Shown piece by piece: positions 4,339 to 12,880 of a stretch of DNA of 64,000 nt. The translations under genes were made by a program, and so were the position numbers. How positions within the stretch are numbered: the stretch's first letter is position 1; each line of letters opens with the position of its first letter. The notes beneath the pieces are model-generated. The model was not told the origin of the DNA. It worked only from the letters and a program-made list of their open reading frames with translations, and did no database searches. This DNA is from Arabidopsis thaliana (Eukaryota > Streptophyta > Magnoliopsida > Brassicales > Brassicaceae): contig NC_003074.8 in NCBI RefSeq assembly GCF_000001735.4, positions 12,338,101 through 12,402,100 of the forward strand, given 5' to 3'.

Positions 4339-6045
4339 TGATAACACTGTATTTTACTCATTTTAGGCATGTATTTATCATCATTTCGCTTAGTGATCAC
4401 TCATTGTTTCATATCATTTTGCATCACATTTAGCTTATTTTGCACACTTAGGCATTTAGGATCATCTTGCATACATATTGTATGTTTTGGGGTGTTTTCA
4501 GGTGCAGAAGGAGCTTACAAGGATTCTACTCGGCCCTCTACTCTATCCAACCAGTAGGGAAGCAGCAGAGGATTCTACTCGACCAGTTAACTCAATCCAG
4601 GCAGCCACAGAGGAGGCAGCAATTCACTCGACCCACTTACTCGATCAAGGCAGCCTCACAAGAAGCAGCAGATCGATCTACTCGCCCCTCCTACTCGATC
4701 CTCTACTCGACCCACTTACTCGAACTAGGGCGACCTACTCTACAAGACTTGTTGATCTATTAAAGCGTCTTCGGATCCTCCTCATTCCCCACTCAACCAG
4801 ACATCTGAGCATACAGATAGGAGAGGAAGATGCATCTACTCGACCAATTGATCACTCGGAGCATAGACACAAAGGCGCGGATTTTGCAGCACCCTCTTTA
4901 CTCGATCCCCAAGATCGAGCACTCGCCCAAACCGCCTCAAGTCTCTTGTCTTCTAGTGAATCTAGGGTTTTCAACATTTTAGTATAAATAGATCACTTTG
5001 GGATTTGTCCGAAGGATCTAGCTTTTATCCTTTAGTTTTACTTTGTGTTCTTGAATCTTCAAAACTTAATTACTCTTAATCTATTTCGTTTTTGCACTTA
5101 ATTCTTTCAGTAAAGCTGTTTAGCTTGTTTAGATCTACATTTTGATATGATTTCAGTAATTTATGGGTTTGTGTTCTTAGTTATGTTGCTTGAGTAGTGA
5201 TTAGGTTTCTTGAGGATGGATTAGATTAGGGTAATCTCTAGGTTAGTTAGGTGGTTAAGATTAGGTTAGATCCCTTCTGGATTCGTTGGCCCCTATGCGG
5301 TTTTTGCAGGCTAATGTGAAGATTCGACCATAGAAGTCCAGCGTCTAAAAGACGTTCAAATGGATGTCTGATCTTACGAATTCCAGAGATTTGTAGACTT
5401 GATCAAGAGATTAGCTAGTCTGTTTATTGGCTTTGGTAGATTGTTGTTTAAACCGTGCTCTGCTATGTTTCATCAACGAGAGTTGAGATTAGGAAGTGGT
5501 AGAGTTATGGGGGTCTCTGTCACGGGAGTGGATTGACCCGGTTTTTGAATCTATCGTCTAGGGTTTCTACCTTTTACCTGTTAGCCACCTGATGAACCCT
5601 AGAGTTGCCCTTATCAATGAATCCATCCTTAGGACTTCTATTCTTCTTAGATTTATTTGTATTCACCCCCTGATTGCACTTGTATTTACCTGTTACTTGT
5701 ATCCCCTGTTGATTGCATTTTAGTTCTTAAAATTATCACATGTTGGTTCTACTTGACCAAATGATCGAGTGGGGCTCTTAAGTTCTCATTTTTACCTGTT
5801 TGAATCATAACCTAGGCATTTACGGCTCTGTATCTGTTCAATTATAAATGAGTTGTGTTGTAATAATTCATGAGACTTAATCATGTCGTTTTATTTTTGC
5901 AGAATCCTAGTATTCAAACTTCTTCTCCGTTTCATCTTATCTGTGTAAGATAACAATCCTACCTTGTTATTTATTTGTGTTTATGTTGTTTTATGCGAGT
6001 GAATAAACTATCTATCTTAGTGTCTGATTATTGAACTTATTATCA
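4339..6045 (+). mobile_element. Athila-like Gypsy LTR, lone copy
   Basis: The block opens TGATAA and closes TTATCA, matching inverted LTR tips, and is about 1.7 kb long. Its U3 carries many ctcgac/gtcgag words (4,530-4,930), a TATA-like 'agtataaataga' at about 4,980, and a long leader. The same sequence family recurs in minus orientation at 44,961-35,441 and in plus at 63,303-64,000; the minus copy is followed by a tRNA-Asp-type primer site, which supports the LTR call. No interior follows here: CACTA sequence begins after it. I could not find a convincing 5-bp target duplication. It contains no ORF that I would call a gene. Confidence 0.75.
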
Positions 6046-6092
6046 CAAATGTATGAATAATTTGTGGTGGGACTCTTGTGTCGAGTTGGTGT

Positions 6093-8719
6093 AAAATGGA
6101 CAAGGCATGGGCTTGGCTGCCAAGGTATGCATCTGTCAGATATTTTCATAGATAGTTTTACTTATCGTGATATTGAATGTGTTGTTGTTTTATATTATCT
6201 TAGGAATAGCCTTGAGTATGAGATTGGAGCAAAGAATTTTGTCTCTGGAGCATCAATTAGTTTGGGGAATCATACTGAGATGTTCTGTCCCTGCGTTGAT
6301 TGTAGAAATGTCTGCCATCAGCTGATAGAGACAGTATTGGATCATCTAGTGATCAGAGGTATGGATTTGAAGTATAAGAGGAATCCATGTTGGAGTAAGC
6401 ATGGGGACAAGAGAGACTGAACATTTGTTGATGTTCCCACTTCAGAAGAAGAGGCTTATGAGTTGCTTAGGACAACGTATTTTGACTCTTAAGTTAGTGA
6501 TGAACAACCATCTGATAAGTGTCAAACTGTAGAAGAATCCGATTTTAGTAATAAGTTAGAGGATGTTGAAACTCCACTCTACTCAACATGTTAGAAGTAC
6601 AACAAGGTTTCTGCAATAACAGTCCTTTACCACTTTAAAGTTAAGAGTGGGATGACAGAAAACTTCTTTGATCAGGTATTGACGACAGTAAAAGACATGT
6701 TGCCCGAAGATAATGTGCTTCCAAAGTCCACTACGGAGATGAAAAAGTTCTTGAAGGTCTTTGGGTTTGGTTACGATCTCATTCACGCATGCAAGAACGA
6801 ATGTATACTTTATCGGAAGTAGTATGCTCAGATGGAAAGCTGCCCAAGATGTAGTGCGTCAAAATGGGAGTTGGATAAACGCAGTGGTGAGGAAAAGAAG
6901 GGGATTCCTGCAAAGGTCCTTCGGTATTTTCCAATCAAAGACAGACTGAAACTGATGTTTAGATCAAAAAGAATGGGTGAGGATCTGCGATGGCATTTCA
7001 GCAATGGTAGTGAAGATGGTATAATGCGACATCCAGTGGACTTTGTTACTTGGGCACGGGTGAATAATAAATGGCCTGAGTTCGATGCAGATCCGAGAAA
7101 CCTTCGTCTTGGTCTTTCTACAGATGGAATGAACCCTTTCTCGATGCAGAATACCAAATACACTACATGGCCAGTCTTATTAGTGAATTACAACATGGCT
7201 CCAACCAAGTGTATGAAGGCTGATAACATCATGTTGACTATGTTGATCCCTGGTTCAACTGCACCAAGCAACAACATCGATGTTTATCTAGCACCGCTGA
7301 TAGAGGATTTGCTGGATATGTGGATTGAAGGTATAAAGGTTTATGACTCATTTATGAAAGAGAAATTTACACTAAGAGCTATGTTGTTGTGGAGTATCAG
7401 TGACTATCCAGGCTTAGGCACATTGTTTGGATGTAAGGTTAAAGGGAAACAAGGCTGTAACGTTTGTGGAAAGGACACACCTAGTAGATGGTTGAAGTAT
7501 AGTAAAAAATATGTCTATTTGGGCAATAGGAAGCGTCTCAGGAATGGACATCCGTACAGGCGCCAAAAGAGTTGGTTTGACAACACTATCGAGAATGGGA
7601 CAGCAAATAGAATTCAAACTAGTGCAGAGATTGCTGAGATACTTAAAGTTTACAAAAATTACTTTGGAAGACCTTTGGAAAAGGTAACTAAGAGGAAAAG
7701 ATCTGAAGTTATTTTAGAGGAAGTCTATGGAGAAGACAGTGATTAATGGAGGTGGAAGAAATTGTTTTATACTCTTCTTATTACCTTACTGGAAGGTTAG
7801 CATTTGGTTTTGTTTAATAGCAAAAATGAGTAAAACTATTGTAAACATTATGTGTAGCCTGAAACTAGTTTTTATTTTGACTTAGGATCTGCCGGTTCGT
7901 CACAACATATATGTCATGCACGTGGAGAAGAAAGTGTCTGACGCTATGTTGTCCACTCTAATTCACAATGCTAAATCGAAAGATGGCTTGAAGGCAAGAA
8001 AAGATTTGGAAGATATGGGAATACGAAGCCACTTGCATACAGAATCACGGGGTAAGAAAACATATTTGCCTCCAGCAGCTTAGGATGTAGAAAGAGGAGA
8101 AGAAGAGATTTTGCCTGAGGTTATCTAAGTTCAGAGGTCCTGATGGGTATTGTGCAAACATCGCTAATTGTGTGTCAGTGAATCCTCCTGGTATTGGTAG
8201 TTTTAAGTCAGACGATCATCATATGCTCATGCAAAATCTATTACTTGTGGCTTTGAGAGGGTTGCTACCAAAAGGGCCTAGGATTGTTGTGACCCGAGTA
8301 TGCAACTTTTTCCATAGATTATGCCAGCGTTCCCTTGACTCTGAGATGTTATTATCATTGGAGACTGAGATAGTCGAGACAATGTGCCAAATGGAGCGGT
8401 TCTTCCCTCCATCATTATTTGACATCATGTTTCATCTTCCTCAGCATCTAGCATCTTCCTCCAGACAGCGTTTCTTCGAGATACATACATACTGCCATCA
8501 CAAGCTAAACAAGTGTTTTACTCAAGAGAAGATGAATCCTCTCCATGGTATGTAGTCATGAGGGCGCCACCAAGAGGATATCATGAGCTAGATACTGAGG
8601 AAGAGTATGTAGCAACACCATTGTTTGAGGAGCAAGTTGAAGATATGGGGAATCAGTTGTCTGACGATGAGAGTTACTATGTTAGAGATGACTATGATGG
8701 AGTTCTAGTGGAAGATTAA
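6093..8719 (+). pseudogene. CACTA TNP2-like transposase gene, broken
   Basis: The likely start reads MDKAWAWLPR, followed after a probable small intron by the transposase-associated N-terminal domain (CPCVDC at about 6,290-6,307, NPCWSKHGD). The Transposase_21 core follows: ACKNECILYRK, CPRCSASKW, KVLRYFPIKDRLKLMF, LRLGLSTDGMNPFSM, and the 304-codon open stretch 6,832-7,746. After a probable intron (7,747-7,887) come HNIYVMHVEKKVSD and a DUF4218-like part (VCNFFHRLCQRSLDSEM) at 8,172-8,555. The C-terminal tail (SSPWYVVMRAPPRGYHEL ... DESYYVRDDYDGVLVED) ends at 8,719 in another frame, so a middle part near 8,510 is lost. In-frame stops lie near 6,418, 6,490, 6,590 and 6,822. The protein would cut and paste the CACTA element; this copy is dead. 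Confidence 0.88.
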
Positions 8720-8790
8720 TGTGGAATATAAACTGGATTATGTAATGCTAATGTGGGATATTTATTGTTGGTTTTGTTTCAGGCTCAGTC

Positions 8791-10537
8791 ATGGCAATTA
8801 CTAGAGGAGGAGGAAATCTACGCCGTAGTAACCGTCAGGAAGGAAAAGGTGTGAGTCCTGTCATTGCAAAGAAACTTTCCAAGAAGTCTAAAAGAAGAGA
8901 AGTTCCACTTAACAGAATAAAATGTCTAAAAGATATTGTTGGAACATAAGAGAATGAGAAAGAGCTGTTTGACAGAGAATTACAAGTTAATGAGCATGAA
9001 ATGGTTGAAGGTGAAAAGGCAGATGAAGAAGAAAATGTTGAAGCTGATGCAGATGGAGATGAAAATGGTGAAGCTGATGCAGAAGATGATCTAGAGGCAA
9101 AAAATGGTGAAGCTGATGCAAAAGATGAGCTAGAGGCAGAAAATGGTGAAGCTCATGTAGAAGATGAGCTAGAGGCGGAAAATTGTGAAGAACCTGATCA
9201 GCCTGCTGACCGTGAGACTTTTGATGATTCTATTGGAGGTGTAGAAACTGACCAGCCTGCTGACTGTGGGAATATGGATGCTTCCACTTGAGCTGGAGAA
9301 CCTAACCAGCCTGCTGAATGTGAAAATATGGATGCTTCCATTGGAGGATAAAACTGGGAGAGTTAGTCAAGTGTTGGGGAAGGATAAACCTAGGAGAGTT
9401 AGGGGTTTAGGCAGAGGGATTACGGCTACCAAACTAGCATTCCTTCAGGCTAGAGACACACACGTGCAAAAGCTAGAAGAAACACAAGCCGAATTGCTTA
9501 GCCATATTCTAGACTTGAAAAATGTGGTCACTGACTTAGCTAGAAAAGAGGTAAGTGATGTTAGCAGAGGGGTTAGGTGTCAGCTGCTAGAATGGGGTTC
9601 ATCAAAAGATGTTGTTGTCGATGAAGGAGAATTCTGCTCGTCTGATCCTTTGTACCTGATTGGTCGCATTAGACTTGGTCCTAACGCAGCAGCTGTTGTA
9701 GTCACATCTATAATTGATAGTGATTCGCCACTATGGAGGCCTACCCCAACCATGTTCACACTTGGGGAAGCTTTGGGACTCAAAATTCATTGGCAAGCGG
9801 ATAAAGTTATTTTGGACAACTTATCAAAATCTCCAATTAGAAGTTCTTATTCAAAGGTAACCCAGGTCTCAGGAGTTTACTTACTTTATTCTCAATACTT
9901 GCAAGCTAAATTTCATATGCTAATATTTGTGAATCACTTATAGGGTACAATATTAGATGAGTCAGTTACAAGATGCAAAGTTTATGATTGGAATTCTCAT
10001 GGTGATGTTATTGCTGAGGGTATTTTGTGTTCCACTAATCCGGACCAAATGATCGATAACATTCCTTTGGGAAAAAATGCAGCCATTGTGAAGATTGTCA
10101 ATGTTCTGAAGGAGGCGGCTTATGTGTGGAGGCCAACACTTGACATATTTGTGATCCCTGACGCAGTAGATCATGAAATCCCATGGCCAATTAAAAGCTT
10201 AGAAATCATCATTCATACTGCAGAGAATTCAACAATGATAAGATCGCCTAGGGTAAGTTTTGATGTTGCAATGACGTGTAATTTAAATTTAGTATTTGAG
10301 ATTTTGATGAGTTTGTTTTTGATGCGTTAGACTACAAGTACCAACTCTGGTTCCAGCAGCAAAGGAAAAAAGCATACGAAGTGCATCCTCTTGGATTGTT
10401 ACAATTCTGGTAAAACTGTTGCAGAGGGCCGAGTTTGCTCGACGGATCCTGCAACTCTTCTACATTTCAAACCCATAGGTCCCAAAGCTAGCAAGGTCTT
10501 CTTAGGTGACAATATGATTCACACAACAAGAAGATAA
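8791..10537 (+). pseudogene. CACTA second gene with DUF8039-like repeats
   Basis: Translation from 8,791 (MAITRGGGNLRRSNRQEG) gives a basic N-terminus, then an acidic repeat region at 9,001-9,180 built on units like ENGEADAEDDLEA, a predicted coiled coil (HVQKLEETQAELLSHIL), and three related segments of the form 'C.L..W.S...VAEG...S.DP...IGPNAA.V': about 9,580-9,800, 9,945-10,250 and 10,330-10,537. I associate these with the DUF8039 domain found in plant CACTA-linked proteins. Introns with gt...ag edges separate the last segments (after 9,855 and 10,254). An in-frame TAA near 8,948 and a frame change near 9,290-9,350 show decay. It lies 70 bp after the transposase gene, as in other CACTA elements. 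Exact biochemical role is not known to me. Confidence 0.7.
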
Positions 10538-10740
10538 GTGTACATGTCTTCTTAGGTGACAATATGAGATACAATGATATTCATTTCAAGAATAAAAACG
10601 TTTCAAAATATTTTTAAATAATTTCTAAAAATCTGCAATTATGTAAACATAATAAATTTGTCAATATATATTTTTTTTTTCATAAAAAATTTGAAAATGG
10701 CATGTAAAAAACATTCTTATGCCTTCATGAAATAGCCAAT
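10538..10740. other. Spacer with short direct duplication
   Basis: The words 'gtcttcttaggtgacaatatga' occur at about 10,496 and again at about 10,545, so the end of the second CACTA gene is duplicated in tandem with a 49-bp period. The rest, to 10,740, is AT-rich with a T-run at 10,667-10,680. No gene seen. Confidence 0.6.
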
Positions 10741-10750
10741 TAGAATGTTT

Positions 10751-10885
10751 CACTCGGATTGATGTCGTGGCGAAATCTCAGCCTTTCCTCATGCCATCTT
10801 AAATAAATGTCCAAGCTTGCCAAAACGATCCAATCACCATATATCACTCGGATACATGACGTGGCGAGATATTGGCCTTTGATTT
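10751..10885 (+). promoter_or_regulatory. Duplicated upstream segment of QQS with ACGT core
   Basis: Two related stretches start at 10,751 and 10,845, each beginning cactcggat, continuing gt..tggcga, and ending in gcctt, a 94-bp period. The second copy contains TGACGTGG (10,857-10,864), an ACGT-core word of the kind bound by plant bZIP factors; the first has a diverged version. Position 470-600 bp before the QQS start suggests promoter sequence. Regulatory function is inference. Confidence 0.4.
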
Positions 10886-10950
10886 GTCTGTTTCGTCTCC
10901 TTTTCGATAATTTATTCACTTCTTTCGATCCAAAAAATTAGAACATCTCA

Positions 10951-11069
10951 GAAGAAGCCTCCTTTCGATCTGTCAGCCATTGAAGAAACCTCCTTTCGAT
11001 CTGTCAGCCATTGAAGATCAGAAGAAACAAGACTCACACGGTCAGCCATTGAAGAAGCCTCCTCTCATT
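10951..11069 (+). repeat. 31-bp tandem repeats in QQS upstream region
   Basis: Two nearly identical 31-bp units, 10,951-10,981 and 10,982-11,012, differ at one base (gaagaagcc versus gaagaaacc; both continue tcctttcgatctgtcagcc). A third, stretched unit (11,013-11,050) keeps the 'gtcagccatt' end, and a fourth partial unit starts at 11,051. I recall that QQS has tandem repeats at its 5' side whose DNA methylation varies naturally and tracks with expression; these are the obvious candidates. Confidence 0.85.
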
Positions 11070-11217
11070 ACCTCTCATCAAACATCTAGATCTGTACCCA
11101 AACCTTATCCCTTTTTCCTTATTTCTCGCTTTGTCTATTCTTAATCTGATTAATACTTGTTGTTGTTCCAGGTTATAGAAGATCTGGGTTGTGTTATATG
11201 CTTCATTTTCTCCACAG

Positions 11218-11331
11218 GTAATATTCTTTTCATCCTTTCAAAAATAATTTCCGATTCGTCAGAGTGATATTGATAAGATGCGAGTACCATTGATTTTCTT
11301 TTGTGTATATTGAATGATTCTTATATTTCAG
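11218..11331 (+). other. QQS: Probable 5'-UTR intron of QQS
   Basis: Sequence reads ccacag|gtaatattc at 11,218 and ttatatttcag ends at 11,331, with a pyrimidine-rich approach to the acceptor. Removing it joins leader sequence to the segment just before the QQS ATG at 11,361. Splicing is inferred from signals only. Confidence 0.5.
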
Positions 11332-11360
11332 CGACCAGTTGGTGTTTGGTTCTTAGATTC

Positions 11361-11626
11361 ATGAAGACCAATAGAGAGGTAAACGATTAGCCATTAGTAA
11401 CTTATTTGTAATTCAAACGACTAACTTTCTTTAGTTTACTGAGATTAAATCTTTCGTTTTGTAGCAGGAAATTTACGTTGAAAGAAGCTTCAAACCAAAC
11501 AATTCAACAATTCAGAATTTGATGGACATTGAAAGGTTCATTTTGCCTCACACTTCTACATCAGGTGTCGCAAGGCTCAAAATGAGGGTCATATCATGGG
11601 TCGGGCTTCAGTTCTACAACTACTGA
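11361..11626 (+). CDS. QQS: QQS (QUA-QUINE STARCH) orphan gene, two coding exons
   Basis: Coding exons 11,361-11,378 and 11,465-11,626 join to give 59 codons plus TGA. The translation begins MKTNREQEIYVERSFKP and ends VISWVGLQFYNY, which agrees with the QQS protein as I remember it (At3g30720). The intron has gt at 11,379 and ends tag at 11,464. No domain, signal peptide or membrane segment is visible. QQS is known as a species-restricted gene without recognisable relatives that shifts carbon and nitrogen allocation (less leaf starch, more protein) and whose product binds the transcription factor subunit NF-YC4. Its expression varies epigenetically between lines. Here it lies between the second gene and right terminus of a dead CACTA element, with tandem repeats upstream. 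Identification rests on recalled sequence and on GDU6 as next gene. Confidence 0.93.
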
Positions 11627-11769
11627 TATTGGGCCTTATCACAAATTAGTTATAGGGCCATTGTATCCAATATTTAATATCTCTGTAAACTTGTTTAATG
11701 GTTATTTTGTTCTAATGCCCATTACAACTAGACTTAATATCAATATAAATACTTTGTAAAATACTTTTT

Positions 11770-12273
11770 TTTTGTTAAAGAGTCACCAAATAGTATAAAA
11801 TAAGGCATAAAATACAGTAATTATATGGATACTCTAAATACAGTATCCAACGACTAAATACAGTAATTATACGGTATAAATTACAATATAAAATATGGTA
11901 TAAAAAACAGTATAAATTACAGTATTAAAATACAATATCCAGCGCTTAAATACAGTAATTATACGGATACTCTAAGAAAGCTATTGTTCAGCAACCCTTA
12001 AACTATCAATTATTACATAATTTAAATGCTATTATAAATTTAAAGTACTGCTATAGTTACGCAATTTAATAGCAAATAGTAATTGCTATTGTAAAATTAA
12101 CAATAACACACAACAAAACGCTATATTAGTTGAAATTTTTATAGCAGAACCCAAACCGCTATATAAAGTGTTCGACCTACTATAACAAGCGCATACATAG
12201 TGTTTACTACAACGCTATAATATCTTATAATATTGTTTTTCCTGTGCTATTGATACTCACAATTCCTGTAGTG
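11770..12273 (+). repeat. CACTA right subterminal repeats and terminal inverted repeat
   Basis: From 11,800 to 11,970 a degenerate repeat on 'acagtaattatacggatactctaa' occurs (near 11,813 and 11,951). From 12,000 to 12,250 short words of the form gctata/tatagc recur in both orientations. The end, reverse complemented, starts CACTACAGGAATTGTGAG. Such arrays normally bind the TnpA-like protein. QQS transcription may run toward this region. Confidence 0.7.
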
Positions 12274-12880
12274 AATTCTTTGTCGCATAGTCTCATTCCG
12301 AATCTAGAACTTGACTGTCGTTTCATTGACTGCAAAAACATCGATCAGACTTGTTTTGTCTCCCAATCTCCATATTTTATTCACAATCATGTGAATGTTA
12401 CCCACATGTGGAGCCTTTGTATTGAGAAATTTGCCAATCACAAAATCTTTCCATAACGGTTTAGCTCCTACAAAAACCTCTTTTGGGACAACAACTCTCC
12501 CTTGACCATCTACTTCATCAACCACAAACTTTTGTTTAGTAAAAACATGTTTTTGAGCTGCTTGAACGTATGACTTTTTGACTGTTGGACCCACCACCCT
12601 TTGAGTCTACGGAGATTCTCGTTGGCTAGATGCATGCCTCCATTGTGAAGTTTGATCATTGAGATCGATGGCCATGTTCTTTGAGATCCTCCTTCTGACT
12701 TACCTGAATCCATGTAGTTTGTATGCCTTTAACCTCTGTCGCCGGAGCTTCCTCCAGCTGCTCTGGAGAAGCCGACAGCTGCAGCATACATGCTGAAACT
12801 ACAAAAACCCTAATCGAGTTAAGCTTTGTTCATCTTTCCACGTCTACAAAGCTTTTCAGTCTTACTAATCGAGTTAACAA
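12274..12880 (-). pseudogene. LINE (L1-type) ORF1 fragment with DUF4283-like domain
   Basis: On the minus strand, MDSGKSEGGSQRTWPSIS starts at 12,713 and the second frame reads FVVDEVDGQGRVVVPKEVF, GAKPLWKDFVIGKFL, HVGNIHMIVNKIWRLGDK and DVFAVNETTVKF (12,304-12,597). This is the nucleic-acid-binding N-terminal domain (DUF4283 type) of plant L1 ORF1 proteins. The two parts lie in different frames, so one small indel separates them near 12,590. The downstream part of the LINE is absent: the CACTA right end abuts at 12,273. Upstream minus-strand leader sequence reaches about 12,880. Confidence 0.8.

Follow-up and report, generated by a model that had tools for sequence, protein, structure and literature searches.

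Silveira et al. (2013; PMC3623765) presented QQS (At3g30720) as a de novo gene of 59 aa in a stretch rich in transposable elements (TEs), with 5' tandem repeats carrying DNA methylation, and the locus analyzed here agrees in its 59-aa product, TE-rich setting, and 5' tandem repeats. The absence of QQS from GenBank is a further claim of PMC3623765, and the setting in a "TE-rich region" is repeated in PMC5821449. In the accessible passages of PMC3623765, CACTA elements are never named and the borders between transposon and unique DNA are unmapped, whereas these borders were mapped in the present analysis. No description of a CACTA break around QQS was found in the literature passages on QQS, orphan genes, and de novo genes, a body of text from which most subscription papers are absent. 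In the accessible part of PMC3049755, AT3G30720.1 belongs to a set of nine genes that are restricted to A. thaliana, are supported by expression evidence, and show polymorphism either for an internal stop or for absence of the stop codon.

Autonomous CACTA (En/Spm) elements of A. thaliana (ATENSPM) have tnp2 and TNP1-like genes, a CACTA terminus, and subterminal repeats in common with the locus of QQS. However, the element at this locus is decayed, is without a left end, has unique DNA in place of its 3' part, and shows at most 73% identity to its relatives. Pack-CACTA elements, as presented in the accessible passages of PMC8903248 and PMC13317346, also contain non-transposon DNA between CACTA parts. 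In contrast to a mobile Pack element, the structure around QQS does not have both termini around captured DNA, the left one being absent; it is single copy, and neither a donor locus nor a donor gene is identifiable, the block that holds QQS matching only itself at E <= 10.

We analyzed a stretch of 64 kb (the window, C3:12338101-12402100), in which QQS occupies C3:12349461-12349726. The coding exons of QQS (11361-11378 and 11465-11626 of the window) give a spliced product of 59 aa and a stop. In the 119.66-Mb genome of seven contigs, the gene is single copy both as DNA and, at E <= 10, as protein; no homologue was found elsewhere in its own genome at either level, or in Pfam. QQS interrupts the remains of a CACTA element, and the features of the interrupted region are collected in Table 1.

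Table 1. Features in and around the interrupted CACTA remains (window coordinates).
Feature	Position	Strand	Basis or remark
CACTA body remains, truncated at both ends	6000..10497	+	Pfam PF02992, PF13960, PF03017; identity to relatives; homology limits
Unique block	10498..11979	+	at the position of about 360 bp of element in relatives
Left junction repeat, exact 22 nt, filler-like	10496-10517 and 10546-10567 (10496..10567)	+	50-bp offset
Promoter-like motif, two copies	starts 10751 and 10845 (10751..10865)	+	
31-nt tandem repeat 5' of the QQS coding region	10951-11017; related further copy 11041-11066	+	repeat search
QQS coding region	11361..11626	+	two exons with an intron between; translation, single copy
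Two near-identical 28-nt units in AT-rich DNA 3' of QQS	11810-11837, 11948-11975	+	
Right end of CACTA, with GCTAT/ATAGC motifs in its subterminal part	11980..12273	+	terminus, profile match, motif clustering

The CACTA body lies to the left of QQS. A tnp2-type transposase gene, a mark of membership in the CACTA (En/Spm) group, was identified by a Transposase_21/tnp2 domain at 6832-7746 (PF02992, E 5.9e-74), and DUF4218 (PF13960, E 8e-11) was found within the same gene at 8223-8555. The second gene had been labeled DUF8039-like in the initial annotation. Pfam gives no DUF8039 for it; instead, positions 9278-9943 correspond to Transposase_23 (TNP1/En/Spm; PF03017, 23.7 bits vs a cut-off of 21), and the gene is TNP1-like. 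Its last exon reaches 10497. The peptide of this exon matches no Pfam family, and the last TNP1 exon of a relative, L017, scores as Transposase_23 with 26.1 bits. The reading frames of the body are interrupted by stops, and its transposase region is 67.9-73.0% identical to 14 relatives. Homology to relatives begins at about 6000-6013 and not at 6046, the first position of the region given in the initial annotation. When a left-end profile built from 14 relatives was run over the whole 64 kb, its sole matches were the right end in inverted orientation and, inside the right end, one position without significance (E 0.96); no left CACTA terminus was found. Because homology starts at 6000-6013 and the profile finds no left terminus, the left part of the element is taken to be lost, and the remains, with no left terminus to match the right one, constitute a truncated relic.

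Within the TNP1-like gene, positions 9019-9346 contain acidic tandem repeats of 30, 39, and 54 nt, all of in-frame length. Farther upstream, an LTR-like repeat at 4339-5816 has at least 37 other genomic matches of 1.2 kb or more and is presumably the LTR of a retrotransposon. A gap of about 200 bp separates the end of this repeat (about 5816) from the first CACTA homology.

On the right side, both a CACTA terminus and subterminal repeats are present. The terminus AATTCCTGTAGTG is matched exactly at 12261-12273, a right-end profile of 10 relatives matches 12066-12273 (E 5.3e-38), and the subterminal part, starting at about 11980, contains 10 GCTAT/ATAGC motifs up to 12273, a number that averaged 1.5 and never exceeded 6 when the sequence was shuffled 2000 times. 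The right end is 57.6-69.3% identical to 16 relatives, and with these values and those of the transposase region the element stands isolated. These results bear out the initial annotation in placing QQS between the CACTA transposase and second gene on one side and a right end with subterminal repeats on the other. Abutting the right end, positions 12274-12640 hold a piece of another dispersed family, which occurs at 10 other places with 73-81% identity over more than 200 bp; an ORF in this piece has no Pfam match. An empty target site was sought through this family and rejected, as its upstream half was not found left of the element. As to a 3-bp target-site duplication, the left end of the element is lost, and the right-flank family has no counterpart on the left.

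QQS, the 3'-truncated body, and the right end, the latter two of the same broad family, lie on one strand. In the body tree, the window was split together with relatives K, M, and O from the rest with support 67 (89 for the K/M/O group itself), and K and M are its nearest relatives by body. In the right-end tree, the window grouped with O with support 60; without O, its position was not separated, and by plain identity O ranked fifth of the 16 relatives at 67.0% (best, 69.3%). A separate left CACTA end between body and right end was looked for in 10,498-11,979 by mismatch search and by profile, and none was found. CACTACAGGAATT is absent on either strand at up to 2 mismatches, and CACTACAAGAA has near-matches only at 10522 (CACAACAAGAA, 1 mismatch) and 10582 (CATTTCAAGAA, 2 mismatches), neither with the CACTA core; the profile of 14 relatives gave no signal. 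The same relatives, weakly, accompany both parts in the trees, the parts have the order and strand to be expected of a single element, and no left terminus lies between them; body and right end are therefore more likely to come from one broken element. The interpretation in the initial annotation, made on the condition that all parts belong to one element, is partly supported; the block between body and right end does not appear to be CACTA-derived.

As the main alternative, two neighboring CACTA remnants with complementary deletions, the left one minus its 3' end and the right one minus all but its right terminus, could have trapped older chromosomal DNA holding QQS. This arrangement would exactly fit a 3'-truncated body, unique DNA, and a lone right end; it is the published scheme for the birth of Pack-CACTA elements in the accessible passages of PMC13317346, and local insertions in one orientation are described in those of PMC8903248. 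Nevertheless, we consider it rather unlikely: strand and order are those of one element, the trees are weakly congruent, no second left-end remnant was found, and the left remnant, too, is without a left terminus, so that the two would form no mobile hybrid at present.

The block between the break of the TNP1 exon (~10,497) and the resumption of right-end sequence (~11,980) is about 1.48 kb long and contains QQS, its promoter, and its 5' repeats. By its GC content, the block is gene-like DNA flanked by AT-rich shoulders, with 37.9% in the part 5' of the coding region (10741-11360) and 36.1% in the coding region and intron, but 23.5% at 10498-10740 and 24.7% at 11627-11978. As judged from similarity searches, it is not recognizable as CACTA sequence. 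Positions 10506-12065 have no second copy in the genome, matching only themselves at E <= 10, and when the block was compared by blastn with 72 loci outside the QQS locus, no matches appeared other than short, AT-rich, or motif ones (best E 0.007). Neither the 31-nt tandem repeat nor the 28-nt units have another genomic site at up to 3 mismatches. The exact 22-nt repeat at the left junction was reproduced in none of 50 shuffles. Duplications of this kind at junctions are a typical product of template switching in end joining, which may also have caused the repeat found here.

The 3' side was followed in 13 related elements of the same genome. In all eight relatives with both parts complete (L017, L020, L052, L062, L063, L064, L067, and L068), the last TNP1 exon is joined to the right terminus within 427-556 bp, and these 3' parts contain no QQS-type DNA; L017, L020, and L052 had contributed to the right-end profile, and the other five had not. 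L070 and L071 also possess both parts, with the right end cut at the edge of the fetched sequence. The right-end loci L014, L015, L018, L019, and L021-L024 stand outside this count as having no TNP1 protein match at E <= 1e-6; among them, L014 and L019 resemble derivatives that have been shortened, and about 570 bp of the 3' part of L018 is shared with L052. In the window, similarity of the exon to relatives extends through GCTAGCAAGGT, whose last letter is 10497, and breaks off there; the terminus follows after 1,776 bp. In L017, the corresponding distance to the terminus is 580 bp, with the first clustered subterminal motif at 357 bp. No close relative shows an intact join, because K and M have no recognizable right end and O (L081) is without the TNP1 gene, its tnp2 gene joining the right end in about 444 bp.

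An origin of QQS from CACTA sequence, which had been raised as a possibility in the initial annotation, is not supported by these sequence comparisons, because relatives join exon and right end without QQS DNA and the block has no second copy; the check on relatives that was proposed there, made within the plant's own genome, speaks against a birth of QQS in the element. A version of this idea in which QQS arose from the element's own 3' DNA, or from promoter-like DNA that it had long carried, diverged beyond recognition and with a reading frame gained, seems improbable to us. The rare QQS promoter motif does recur in the same orientation in K and M, both of which the body tree places with the window, at some 830-870 bp 3' of their TNP1 gene. 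However, apart from the motif, the block shows no alignment with K and M, the 427-556 bp of the eight complete relatives hold no such DNA, and the motif is found near other genes too.

The motif, CACTCGGATNNATGNCGTGGC, was found at seven genomic places at up to 2 mismatches, and its reversed control at none. Two of these places are in QQS and one, at C1:7179358, is exact; the two-mismatch places are C1:17976563, C4:10368640, K, and M. Judged from base composition, chance would yield about 1.1 sites when up to 2 mismatches are allowed and 0.0005 when none is, and therefore the exact site stands out, the two-mismatch sites only slightly. Those in K and M are copies of one ancestor and lie 872 and 829 bp, respectively, 3' of the last aligned TNP1 residue, in the orientation of QQS, a placement for which an after-the-fact estimate gives a chance in the region of 1 in 2000. 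Flanks around the motif exceeded z 3 in three of 20 tests, one of them with K and two with L077, which is unrelated; no test with M did so. For K and M together, this was one test of eight (K, 3.87), with all four tests of M below 0.2, and L077 reached 4.00 and 3.56. K and M were rejected as carriers of QQS DNA, having the motif in common but not the flanks. The motif common to the window, K, and M hints at older common DNA. That the QQS promoter came from promoter-like DNA carried by this CACTA subfamily 3' of the TNP1 gene, with QQS born within the transposon lineage, we nevertheless hold to be highly doubtful.

Additionally, the promoter-like motif of QQS occurs near other genes, in L072 at 1501-1521 (C1:7179358, exact), L075 at 1501, and L077 at 1501. 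Three motif-bearing promoter loci reached z of about 2.6-3.5 over the shuffle mean, none above the best of 60 shuffles and one equal to it. C1:7179358, which we take to lie between HMG-box genes, had a whole-segment score of 182.9, above all 40 shuffles (mean 153, maximum 177.6). It was rejected as a promoter donor, with about 26 nt shared and unrelated loci reaching 174.8. We read CACTCGGATNNATGNCGTGGC as a general promoter element, and its occurrence near other genes may reflect a general cis-element.

Transduplication, in which a CACTA element copies a gene fragment as in Pack-type elements, or a nested transposon carrying QQS might also account for the block. Arabidopsis CACTA-like elements are known to take up genomic DNA, according to the accessible passages of PMC8903248, but the genome contains no donor and no second copy, and without a left terminus the present structure is immobile. 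The nested form would place a transposon with terminal inverted repeats around QQS; this candidate was rejected, since 7 of 30 shuffles contained an inverted pair at least as good as the only one around QQS, of 16 nt (10561-10576/11659-11674). We regard both forms as having little probability. As to the proposed capture of QQS by CACTA, no donor survives for a copy taken from elsewhere, and the trapping of neighboring DNA keeps the low likelihood given above.

With regard to the epigenetic switching of QQS, the accessible passages of PMC3623765 report that the gene is derepressed in met1, ddm1, rdr2, and similar methylation or small-RNA mutants. They also report that the TEs adjacent to QQS carried methylation consistently across the tested accessions while QQS varied, and that methylation of QQS was reduced by a T-DNA located 153 bp upstream of the start site, with neighboring TEs unaffected. 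The state of QQS is described there as not determined by flanking TEs, with the promoter and 5'UTR most likely in control. The repeats 5' of QQS fall in the unique, non-CACTA block. Of the suggested tie between QQS switching and transposon silencing, the part concerning silencing machinery common to QQS and transposons agrees with the mutants, whereas control of QQS by the CACTA element is not supported.

Taken together, the direct join in eight of eight relatives, the single-copy block, the 22-nt junction repeat, the position of body and right end beside K, M, and O, and the autonomous epigenetic control of QQS lead us to favor, at a probability of about 60%, the insertion of the unique QQS block into one old, decayed CACTA element during break repair, with the element as landing site and not as parent. 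We infer the following order of events from the sequence. A break would have arisen in the dead element between the last exon of the TNP1-like gene and the right terminus. Its repair with other DNA would have replaced about 360 bp by the block at ~10,498-11,979 and left the filler-like duplication at the left junction. QQS would then be expressed from the promoter and 5'UTR of the block itself, and the short repeats of this promoter and 5'UTR, rather than the CACTA element, would attract the silencing machinery.

Among orphan genes, QQS is a flagship case, and the literature passages covered here describe it only as a de novo gene in a TE-rich region. With borders at about 10,497/10,498 and 11,979/11,980, the question of its origin reduces to a simple comparison. 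In addition, these results indicate that a position inside transposon remains need not mean derivation from, or control by, that transposon.
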